64,000 nucleotides of DNA, from positions 682,001 to 746,000 of the forward strand of contig NZ_KE386573.1 of the NCBI RefSeq assembly GCF_000427685.1. Direction: 5' to 3'. Of the stretch, positions 7,039 to 59,304 are shown one piece after another (positions within the stretch are counted from its first letter, which is position 1; each line of letters begins with the position of its first letter). The DNA is from Haloplanus natans DSM 17983. GTDB taxonomy: Archaea > Halobacteriota > Halobacteria > Halobacteriales > Haloferacaceae. The notes under the pieces were generated by a model. The model ran no database searches, had not been told where the DNA came from, and worked only from the letters and a program-made list of their open reading frames with translations. The translations under genes and the position numbers were made by a program.

Positions 7039-7120
7039 GCCGTTTCCGATACGGTTTCTTCTACGGTGGGCGCCAGGACGGTCCGGCGACCTATCGGTAC
7101 ACAGTCACGAGAGTCCGTCC
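7039..7120. repeat. Degenerate copy (F) of the 82-nt two-stem palindrome family
   Basis: Within the 248-bp gap after the methyltransferase gene. The core 'GGTGGGCGCCAGGACGGTCC' followed by GGCGACC and CGGTAC (7065-7099) lines up with the inner arms and 12-nt loop of copies B and E. The arms pair only partly and the outer arms are not recognisable, so this is either an eroded copy or chance similarity. Confidence 0.4.
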
Positions 7121-9543: not shown

Positions 9544-9625
9544 ACGAGTAACGTTCCAACTGTCTGCACGTCCGATCGCGAGACTGCGTTCGATCGGGGC
9601 GTACACTGACTTACAGAGGCTACTA
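9544..9625. repeat. Copy D of the 82-nt two-stem palindrome family
   Basis: In the 293-bp gap between the DmdA-like gene and metG. Inner left arm 9564-9578, 12-nt loop 9579-9590 (CGAGACTGCGTT), inner right arm 9591-9605, then CTGACTTACAGAGGCTACTA. It shares the CCGATCG/CGATCGG arm ends, the AGACTGCGT loop and TGACTTAC with copy A, but the outer arms are eroded. Its length and layout are exactly those of copies A and B. Confidence 0.8.
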
Positions 9626-13835: not shown

Positions 13836-13838
13836 GAT

Positions 13839-13920
13839 ATAGTAGCGTCTGGACCTGTTTGCACAGCCGATCGCAAGACTGCGTCCGATCGGCTGTGCAA
13901 TGACTTACGAACGCTACTAT
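13839..13920. repeat. Copy A of the 82-nt two-stem palindrome family
   Basis: An almost ideal double palindrome. The outer arms TATAGTAGCGT/ACGCTACTATA (13838-13848 and 13911-13921) pair over 11 bp. The inner arms 13859-13873 and 13886-13900 pair perfectly over 15 bp (TTGCACAGCCGATCG). The loop is CAAGACTGCGTC (13874-13885). The right spacer carries the family motif TGACTTAC. It begins 3 bp after the stop of the small membrane protein and ends about 20 bp before the promoter of the NfeD-like gene. Confidence 0.92.
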
Positions 13921-13974
13921 AGCCGTCGGGACCGCGGCCGACAGTATAAACGCCTCCGGCCCAAACGTCGGCGC

Positions 13975-25075: not shown

Positions 25076-25297
25076 ATGGCACGCGAAGTCACCCACACTG
25101 CGACCGGCCCGAAAATCATCACGTTCGAGGACATCGACGACGAGAAAGGCGACGTGGCGGTCTGTCTCTGTGGTCTGAGCGAGTCCTACCCCTTCTGTGA
25201 TGGCTCCCACCGCCGGACCGAGGACGAGGACCCCGACGAGCGCTACAAATACGTCGACGGGGAGCGGCGGCGGGTGTCCGTCGAGTTCGAGGAGTGA
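25076..25297 (+). CDS. CDGSH-type iron-sulfur protein
   Basis: 73 residues with the CDGSH binding motif for a 2Fe-2S cluster with 3Cys-1His ligands: 'VAVCLCGLSESYPFCDGSH' (residues about 28-46), where the ligands are Cys-x-Cys, the Cys of FCDGSH and its His. These proteins act in iron or redox homeostasis. A single motif and no membrane anchor make it the short soluble bacterial/archaeal type. It follows the zinc-ribbon gene by 44 bp. Confidence 0.93.
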   Translation: MAREVTHTATGPKIITFEDIDDEKGDVAVCLCGLSESYPFCDGSHRRTEDEDPDERYKYVDGERRRVSVEFEE

Positions 25298-25440
25298 TAC
25301 CGCTGGCCGCGAGTCGACCGGATCGTTCACCGCCCCGTGGCACCGTCGGCGTCTCGGCTCCGGCCCGCCGGTCGTAACGGACGACGACGCGCGAGAGGCG
25401 CCGGAAACTATTTGACTCGCTTTCGTGCATCCCTACACAA

Positions 25441-27715: not shown

Positions 27716-27812
27716 TTGCTGTGAGACCCGGTCGACGGAAACCAGTCACCTGAGACTCGGGTTGAGAGTAGTTAACGATTCGGGTCGCGGTGGTTCGTGT
27801 GGCGGGCGTCTG

Positions 27813-27863
27813 ATAGTGTTTATTATAACTGGTTACCGGTGGGTCGCCAAGACGGTCCGGCGA
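27813..27863. repeat. Half copy (E) of the two-stem palindrome family, upstream of purA
   Basis: The left outer part (27813-27832), inner left arm TTACCGGTGGGTCGC (27833-27847) and loop CAAGACGGTCCG (27848-27859) are present. The 38 nt from 27811 differ from copy B at only two positions. After GCGA the right half breaks off into unrelated sequence. The rest of the 304-bp gap (27681-27984) holds the promoter of the regulator and, near 27946, an AT-rich TATCGTAATCGG likely serving purA. Confidence 0.85.
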
Positions 27864-27984
27864 GAGGCGACGGACGGGTCGCCGAATCGTCGTGGAAGCG
27901 ACCGCACGCGGGCAGTCGGTCGCTCCAGCGACCGTGAGAATATCGTAATCGGTTTAGCGAGTGGGGTGGAATCCCCGGCCGGAT

Positions 27985-29313
27985 ATGACTGTCACTATCG
28001 TCGGGTCCCAGCTCGGCGACGAGGGCAAGGGTGCCCTCGTCGACCTGTGGGGTGGGAGCGCCGACATCGTGGTCCGGTACCAGGGCGGCGACAACGCCGG
28101 CCACACCGTCGTCGAAGGCGGCGAGGAGTACAAACTCTCCCTGGTGCCGAGCGGTGCGATTCGCGGGAAGGTCGGCATCCTCGGGAACGGCTGCGTGGTC
28201 AACCCACGGACGCTGTTCGACGAACTCGACACGCTTCACGAGCGGGGACTCGACCCCGACGTGCGCGTCGCGCGCCGCGCTCACGTCATCATGCCGTACC
28301 ACCGCGTCCTCGACGGCATCGAGGAGGAGGCGAAAAGCGACGACGACCTGGAGGCCGGCACCACGGGGCGTGGCATCGGCCCCACCTACGAGGACAAGGT
28401 CGGTCGACGCGGGATTCGCGTCGGCGACCTGCTCGACCCCGACGTGCTCCGGGACCGACTGGAGTACGTCGTCCCGCAGAAGCGCGCGCTCGTCGAGGAC
28501 GTCTTCGGGATGGAACCCGGCGAGGAGTTCGACATCGACGCCCTCCACGAGGAGTTCGCCGATGTCGGCCGCCGACTCGACGCGGCGGACATGACGGTCA
28601 ACGCGGGCGATTTCCTCGGCGACGAACTCGACGACGGTGCGAACCTGCTGTTCGAGGGCGCCCAGGGTACCTCGATCGACATCGACCACGGCATCTACCC
28701 CTACGTCACCTCCTCGAACCCGACCGCGGGCGGCGCGTCGACGGGGACGGGCGTCGGGCCGACGGTGATCGGGCAGGGCGAAGTGGTCGGCATCGTGAAA
28801 GCCTACCTCTCCCGGGTCGGCACCGGGCCGCTCCCGACCGAACTCGACGGCGAGGATGAGGATCTGGCCGACTACATCCGCGAGAAAGGCGGCGAGTTCG
28901 GCACCGTCACCGGCCGGCCACGCCGGATCGGCTGGCTCGACGTGCCGATGCTCCGCCACGCTTCGCGGGCCAGCGGCTTCACCGGCATCGCGGTCAACCA
29001 CCTCGACGTGCTCGCCGGTCTGGACGAGGTGCAGGTCGGCGACGCCTACGAACTCGACGGCGAGCGCGTGGAGACGATGCCCGCGACGACCGAGCGCTGG
29101 GCCGACTGCGAGCCGATCCTGAAGGAGTTCGAGCCGTGGCCCGAGGTGGACTGGGGCGGCGTCGCCGACGACGGCTACGACGCCCTCCCCGACGCGGCAC
29201 AGGAGTATCTCGACTACCTGAGCGACGAGGTCGGCGCCCCCGTCTACGCCGTGGGCGTCGGGCCCGACCGCGCCGAGACCATCGAACTCGTCGATCCGTT
29301 CGATCGGGACTGA
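27985..29313 (+). CDS. purA: Adenylosuccinate synthetase
   Basis: First committed step from IMP to AMP: joins aspartate to IMP using GTP. The 442 residues contain the GTP loop 'GDEGKGALVDLW' (about residues 10-21), 'GDNAGHTVV' with the catalytic His, 'GTTGRGIGPTYEDK', 'LFEGAQGTSIDIDHGIYPYVTSSN', and the C-terminal 'FGTVTGRPRRIGWLD'. The ATG at 27985 is chosen because GxQLGDEGKG then starts at the usual position. It is flanked by palindrome copies: half copy E upstream and full copy B, which begins at its stop codon. Confidence 0.95.
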   Translation: MTVTIVGSQLGDEGKGALVDLWGGSADIVVRYQGGDNAGHTVVEGGEEYKLSLVPSGAIRGKVGILGNGCVVNPRTLFDELDTLHERGLDPDVRVARRAHVIMPYHRVLDGIEEEAKSDDDLEAGTTGRGIGPTYEDKVGRRGIRVGDLLDPDVLRDRLEYVVPQKRALVEDVFGMEPGEEFDIDALHEEFADVGRRLDAADMTVNAGDFLGDELDDGANLLFEGAQGTSIDIDHGIYPYVTSSNPTAGGASTGTGVGPTVIGQGEVVGIVKAYLSRVGTGPLPTELDGEDEDLADYIREKGGEFGTVTGRPRRIGWLDVPMLRHASRASGFTGIAVNHLDVLAGLDEVQVGDAYELDGERVETMPATTERWADCEPILKEFEPWPEVDWGGVADDGYDALPDAAQEYLDYLSDEVGAPVYAVGVGPDRAETIELVDPFDRD

Positions 29314-29394
29314 TAGTGTGTATTGTAACTGGTTACCGGTGGGTCGCCGGACCGTCTTAGCGACCCGCCGGTAATGACTTACAATACACACTAT
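29313..29394. repeat. Copy B of the 82-nt two-stem palindrome family
   Basis: The outer arms ATAGTGTGTATTGTAA/TTACAATACACACTAT (29313-29328, 29379-29394) pair perfectly over 16 bp. The inner arms TTACCGGTGGGTCGC/GCGACCCGCCGGTAA (29333-29347, 29360-29374) pair over 15 bp with one G-U type difference. The loop is CGGACCGTCTTA (12 nt) and the right side carries TGACTTAC. Its first base is the last base of the purA stop codon. Confidence 0.93.
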
Positions 29395-29444
29395 GACTCG
29401 TCAGCAGGGCAATCGTTTTAGCCCCCGCTCGTGGACGTACACGC

Positions 29445-58796: not shown

Positions 58797-59228
58797 ATGC
58801 CCCCATCTCACGTCCTCGTCCCCCTCGATGGCTCGCCGCTCGCGGACGCCGCGCTCGCGGAGGCGCTTTCCCTGTTCGACTGCCGGCTCACGGTCCTGAA
58901 CGTCGTGACACCGCTCGACGCGGGCATGAGCGAGGGTGGGATCCTCGACGCGGGCGAGGACCGTCGCGAGAGCGCACGCGACCGGGCCGAGCGTCTCGTC
59001 GAGCGGGCGCGGTCCCGGGCGGCCGAGGCCGATTGCACCGTCGACACCGTCGTCCGAGCCGGCGATCCGGCCGAGACGATCCTCGACTCCGTCGACGAGC
59101 ACGGTATCGACCGGATCGTGATGGGCGGGCACGGCGGCGAGCGCAACGCCGTTGCCCGCCGACTGCTTGGCACCGTCGCGACGACCGTCGTCGGCGAGGC
59201 GCCGGTGACGGTGACGGTCGTTCGTTGA
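58797..59228 (+). CDS. Universal stress protein (UspA family)
   Basis: 143 residues of one Usp domain: 'HVLVPLDGSPLADAALAEAL' at the N terminus (nucleotide-contacting Asp), 'AGDPAETILDSVDEHGIDRIVMGGHGGERNAVARRLLGTVA' (in pieces) containing the ATP-binding G-x2-G-x9-G pattern, and 'APVTVTVVR' at the end. Role: nucleotide-binding stress or transport-modulating protein. The upstream frame is open, but the ATG at 58797 gives the family N terminus. Palindrome copy C starts right after its stop codon. Convergent with the PiT transporter. Confidence 0.92.
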   Translation: MPPSHVLVPLDGSPLADAALAEALSLFDCRLTVLNVVTPLDAGMSEGGILDAGEDRRESARDRAERLVERARSRAAEADCTVDTVVRAGDPAETILDSVDEHGIDRIVMGGHGGERNAVARRLLGTVATTVVGEAPVTVTVVR

Positions 59229-59302
59229 GGGAGTATCGGAAGTCGTCAGGGATGCTCGCCGTGGCAGTCCGGCGAGCATCCCTGGACAGTTACGATACCC
59301 CC
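59229..59302. repeat. Copy C of the two-stem palindrome family, opposite orientation
   Basis: The inner arms 59246-59260 and 59271-59285 (TCAGGGATGCTCGCC/GGCGAGCATCCCTGG) pair over 14-15 bp around a 10-nt loop GTGGCAGTCC. The outer arms GGGAGTATCG/CGATACCCCC (59229-59238, 59293-59302) pair with one mismatch. On the minus strand it reads TAACTGT before the inner stem and GACTTCC after it, matching TAACTGG and GACTTAC of copy B. It fills the gap between two convergent stop codons almost exactly. Confidence 0.85.
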
Positions 59303-59304
59303 TC

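Follow-up and report, generated by a model that had tools for sequence, protein, structure and literature searches.

The window, the whole 64,000-nucleotide stretch of DNA that was analysed, contains six copies (A to F) of a short palindromic element without a gene. The copies, together with the parts of copy B, are as follows.

13840–13919, forward strand: copy A, 80-bp body TAGTAG...CTACTA, a strong palindrome and covariance-model match
29314–29393, forward strand: copy B, 80-bp body TAGTG...CACTA, a palindrome that G002 and other congeners lack at this site
29311–29313, forward strand: left target duplication of B, TGA, also the stop codon of the open reading frame (ORF) 27961–29313
29394–29396, forward strand: right target duplication of B, TGA
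29329–29332, forward strand: left half of the unpaired 4×4 block of B, CTGG
29375–29378, forward strand: right half of the unpaired 4×4 block of B, TGAC, the start of TGACTTAC
29348–29359, forward strand: apical loop of B, 12 nt, an invertible segment in the family
59229–59304 (start and end approximate), reverse strand: copy C, of a third family, the third strong palindrome and a covariance-model match
9544–9625, forward strand: copy D, a decayed A-type copy, 79% identity over 75 nt
27814–27863, forward strand: copy E, a B-type half copy, 95% identity over 39 nt, with TGA preceding it at 27811–27813
7039–7120, reverse strand: copy F, a degenerate copy, 80% identity over 46 nt, best match at about 7064–7108

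Copy A is flanked by TA on both sides (13838–13839 and 13920–13921), and copy C occupies all of the space between two convergent ORFs, whose ends lie at 59228 and 59305. The original prediction described A and B as two-stem inverted repeats with a 12-nt loop, which was confirmed by folding against shuffled sequences (z −7.5 for A and −10.4 for B; C reached −8.7, all three folding far better than their shuffles). A covariance model trained on B-type copies alone also picked out the window's copies A (E 2e-7) and C (E 4e-10), so that A, B and C are homologous. With D, E and F as decayed relatives whose folding no longer exceeds that of shuffles, the proposed grouping of all six into one family is borne out, as are the readings of E as a half copy and of F as a degenerate one. 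D was correctly given a length of 82 nt, but the pairing of its arms has been lost (z +0.5). The proposed limits of the elements were close, with a slight shift: the body spans 80 bp (TAG...CTA) and is bordered on each side by the duplicated T(G/C)A. An Rfam search of the window matched no family.

Empty sites, target duplication and nested insertions

The syntenic region was compared across eleven congeners. At the A site the element is absent from every member of the genus that aligns, and G002 and G009 lack it at the B site. Exact empty sites were few, the intergenic flanks being mostly too diverged. The clearest junction, at C7:158247, reads GGACTGA-[element]-TGAGCGCC in the host, against AGACTGAGCGCC in G002 and GGACTGAGCGG in G005, which delimits an 80-bp body (TAG...CTA) accompanied by a 3-bp duplication. 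Among the loci examined, a scan that demands matched flanks yielded 90 copies between identical T-N-A trinucleotides (TCA 48, TGA 40, TAA 1 and TTA 1), with bodies of 80 bp in 67 copies, 79 bp in 14 and 78 bp in seven. When matched flanks were not demanded, an exact TNA duplication was found in 46 of 63 copies, the rest being mostly A-type or decayed. TGA and TCA are one site read from opposite strands, and the target is symmetric, GWC-TSA-GWC (n = 88; G in 60 and C in 62 on the left, G in 53 and C in 52 at the mirror positions on the right). The target-site duplication for which the original prediction had suggested looking is therefore present, as 3 bp of T(G/C)A evident both from empty sites and from matched flanks. 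A-type copies have TA on both sides rather than TNA, as has one B copy that is inserted in an A arm; the length of the duplication is thus not uniform, and a 2-bp duplication may also occur besides that of 3 bp.

Elements of this kind also insert into one another. At L089 (G008) an element lies in an A arm with a TGA duplication, and at L042 (C7:155446) an element of one family lies in an arm of another, insertions that give relative ages. At two places, two species carry different copies at the identical TGA of a stop codon, a site at which closer relatives have no element (L116 5118–5199 with L126, and L116 19248–19329 with L129), which suggests recurrent insertion at one site. We also observed that L112 (G008), the place matching positions 25289–25399 of the window, apparently holds two adjacent related elements in an intergenic gap, where the window has none.

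Position relative to stop codons

With genes called heuristically from codon-position GC bias, 54 of the 80 testable copies had their TSA precisely on a predicted stop codon and the other 26 were intergenic; no predicted gene contained a copy. Of the remaining TSA trinucleotides in these flanks, 75 were at stop codons, 1580 intergenic and 1814 in genes, and the enrichment persisted among target-like sites, with an odds ratio of about 15. On the Natrialba magadii plasmid pNMAG01, a copy begins where an annotated FAD oxidoreductase gene ends. Because the duplication keeps the TGA of the upstream gene intact, this position is most simply explained by a target preference combined with the survival of insertions that do no harm; true targeting of stop codons is also possible.

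Copy number and distribution

The host genome (3.8 Mb) carries approximately 90 B-like copies, a number estimated as half of 184 arm matches, along with about 17 A-type and 12 C-type copies. The outer-arm pattern matched this genome 88 times in the forward and 96 times in the reverse direction and the reversed-pattern control 0 and 0 times, so the copy number is far beyond chance. The covariance search of haloarchaeal genomes proposed with the original prediction, run with the B-type model at E 1e-4, found homologs widely but patchily, 148 of 392 genomes and 47 of 95 genera of the order being positive. In a sample of the phylum (295 genomes), all 20 positive genomes were from Halobacteriales and none was seen outside the order. 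Carriers could be named from plasmid records as Natrinema, Natronorubrum, Natrialba, Halomicrobium, Halapricum, Halomontanus and Halococcus, with Halorubrum salinarum carrying a longer, 106-bp form. A strict-pattern scan of named genomes, which may leave out close relatives of the window, had Halobellus sp. Atlit-31R as its sole match. Viral, phage and plasmid collections gave no match to the B copy or the B arm pattern, and nothing beyond a chance-level bacterial match to a G040 copy; the plasmid matches arose when the 106-bp form or relatives in other genera served as queries.

The stems and the unequal block are specific to each genome group (for instance ACTG and GCCA in G040, GCGA and GGCC in G026). 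The relative of about 106 bp, with the same tips, unequal arms and a TSA duplication, was seen at L158, L162, L166, L170, L174 and L177 (G016) and at L201 1501–1619 on H. salinarum pHAR02. At four G026 loci (L172, L187, L188 and L190) a single copy carries arms of two types, TTGTAG and TTCTCG, as if subfamilies can swap arms.

Stem pairing, the unpaired block and the loop

Sixteen representative copies, two from the genus of the window and 14 from six genomes of other genera, were aligned without gaps over 80 columns. Stem cells were paired in 93.1% of cases against 69.3% in shuffles, a contrast that sequence relatedness can inflate and that includes copies partly selected on stem pairing, which raises the percentage paired. 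Double-change stem cells numbered 109 against 38 in shuffles. The block between the two stems (columns 16–19 with 62–65) behaved in the opposite way, with 25% pairing against a shuffle mean of 45%, and all 500 of 500 shuffles paired at least as much. These biases weigh less on the covariation counts and on the low pairing of the block, for which copies were not selected. Taken together, the pairing of the stems and the sub-chance pairing of the block indicate that the former are kept paired and the latter is kept unpaired. Covariation was also clear in 43 copies nearly all from the genus of the window. Invariant arm positions comprise the TA at the tip, G5, T8, T11, T13, T21 and CCG at 23–25, whereas the remaining positions vary between families yet still match the opposite arm.

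Within one genome, the B family had no covariation (91.6% paired against 91.1% in shuffles). Among single transitions, A-C mismatches (30) were not rarer than G-U pairs (21), so there was no preference for wobble pairs. The absence of compensation within a family, together with that of any G-U preference, argues that resident copies are not maintained as RNAs and that the constraint acts on the transposing lineage instead of on a folded RNA at each locus; resident copies therefore drift freely while moving elements are constrained. The changed but paired arms of the original prediction are thus real between families, and copies within a single one show no compensation.

When copies were oriented by arm type (ACTG or GTCA), the apical loop pointed one way in 27 and the other way in 25, with one tie. 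Such an even split requires inversion at the DNA level inside the palindrome, the candidate routes being recombination of the inner arms with each other, template switching and the transposition reaction itself, and it is a strong argument against an RNA loop with a specific sequence.

Discussion

Presence and absence at the same site in sister species, the 3-bp T(G/C)A duplication, mutual nesting, dispersal in large numbers and location at stop codons or between genes directly support the reading of these sequences as non-autonomous mobile DNA elements, that is, palindromic mini-transposons of 80 bp without a gene, probably moved by a transposase supplied in trans. The original prediction had left three options, an RNA, a protein-bound cruciform or a mobile element. 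The evidence favors the last and disfavors a resident RNA, and a putative protein-bound cruciform or hairpin is possible during transposition.

That the hairpins instead act as structured RNAs, or as terminators or 3′-UTR hairpins whose fold is selected at each locus, would agree with the strong RNA folds of A, B and C and with a position at stop codons that would place a hairpin at the 3′ end of the transcript. We consider this highly improbable, given the empty sites of sister species, the many decayed copies and the lack of an Rfam family, and we rejected an RNA function on the grounds of covariation, wobble pairing and loop orientation: resident copies do not covary, A-C mismatches are no rarer than G-U pairs and the loop occurs both ways round. 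Movement as a folded single-stranded hairpin cut by an HUH (Y1) enzyme, as proposed for REPINs and their RAYT enzymes, would make the TGA a carried cleavage tag and not a duplication. The REPIN-like length class, the hairpin form, the compensatory stem changes and conserved folding capacity (PMC3116915) agree with such a route, as do the active exclusion of pairing from the block between the stems and the fact that 88 of 90 copies have TGA as their tag when read on one strand. It is nevertheless unlikely, since the flanks are conserved symmetrically on either side of TSA, the two rare TAA and TTA copies match on both sides, and the TGA is oriented nearly at random relative to the asymmetry of arms and loop (30 TGA against 21 TCA); moreover, a published survey of Archaea saw Y1 enzymes of subclass 1.1 (IS200) alone and found no RAYT (PMC6006769).

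The matching changes in the arms might owe less to selection on the fold than to template switching between arms (quasi-palindrome correction) during replication or transposition, which would add to the mobile-element reading. Template-switch events alter both arms in one step, and the free inversion of the loop indicates that arm-to-arm events do occur. The same process should also repair the 4-bp block, which is unequal in every family examined and pairs below chance, and the arms of resident copies are no more alike than shuffles; we therefore regard this origin of the covariation as possible, if somewhat doubtful.

For the mini-transposons that we favor, a symmetric target with a matched short duplication suggests a transposase that joins the two ends over a stagger of 3 bp. 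Such an enzyme, most likely of the DDE type and acting in trans on double-stranded DNA, would recognize both arms. The 4-bp block may be kept different in the two arms so that the transposition complex can tell the ends apart, or to avoid a perfect palindrome, and resident copies would decay freely after insertion. Against this scheme speak the TA flanks of A-type copies, the scarcity of exact empty sites, the negative search for a transposase in G040, in G056 and among the arm matches listed in G000, and the pairing at positions that a protein binding double-stranded DNA should not need, which hints at a folded intermediate.

In the literature, the best match to these elements is provided by the short mobile repeats (SMRs) of Haloquadratum walsbyi, namely SMR-A (HqIRS42, HqIRS43 and HqIRS55, about 110 bp) and SMR-B, which includes the 80-bp HqIRS41 (PMC3119063). 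SMRs and the present elements are alike haloarchaeal, 80–110 bp long, geneless and present in many copies, with prominent terminal inverted repeats and strain-specific insertions; the mobilization of SMRs was termed enigmatic in 2011 (PMC3119063). As judged from the descriptions of SMRs, the two differ in that target duplications were reported absent from SMRs, with SMR-A inserting into the palindromes of PATEs and IS605-type transposons (PMC3119063), whereas the present elements, the 106-bp form of G016 included, duplicate T(G/C)A and, classed by gene position, lie at predicted stop codons (54 of 80) or between genes (26). The low-GC G016 may be a Haloquadratum, and its 106-bp form may be the published SMR-A.

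REPINs, which are mobilized by RAYTs, share with our elements a hairpin palindrome of about 80 nt with fixed length, compensatory stems, extragenic location, dispersal and the lack of a gene (PMC3116915). The 3-bp duplication at a symmetric target and the unequal 4×4 block set the present elements apart, in their integration and presumably in their enzyme. As for structured RNA families, neither covariation among resident copies nor an Rfam match was found.

Duplications of TNA or TA are known from IS5/PIF-type and IS630-type elements and related MITEs, a likeness that concerns the duplication. Common to MITEs and the 80-bp elements are terminal inverted repeats without coding capacity, a short target duplication, insertion polymorphism, nesting and high copy number. 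In contrast to MITEs, the present element is a single whole palindrome of nearly fixed length with a conserved unpaired block. No parent transposon, transposase or longer element with these ends was found in G040, in G056 or among the arm matches listed in G000; the associated transposase envisaged by the original prediction was thus not encountered there. Two candidates for an autonomous element were rejected: about 20 apparently lone ends turned out to belong to separate or decayed copies of 80 bp, and further lone ends inspected in G040 and G056 revealed no transposon either; a pair about 1 kb apart around a prephenate-dehydratase-like gene (L138, C7:617000–619600) consisted of one intact and one decayed copy. 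We found no description of this palindrome superfamily in the open-access literature, and SMRs, MITEs and REPINs are the closest known kinds, of which it appears to be a widespread relative.

A more specific and rather unlikely proposal, which we offer tentatively, is that these order-wide archaeal mini-elements are moved by a candidate transposase that recognizes DNA folded into a cruciform or hairpin, needs the stems paired and the 4×4 block unpaired, and leaves a 3-bp duplication, with the inner stem-loop inverting freely (27:25). The defined GWC-TSA-GWC target, the duplication, the near-exact length, the invariant positions and the unpaired block offer handles for finding the enzyme. Where copies sit at stop codons, many genes acquire a long hairpin at the 3′ end, which could shape their transcripts. 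Should movement require both the paired stems and the unpaired block, the superfamily would represent a structure-reading transposition system in Archaea.
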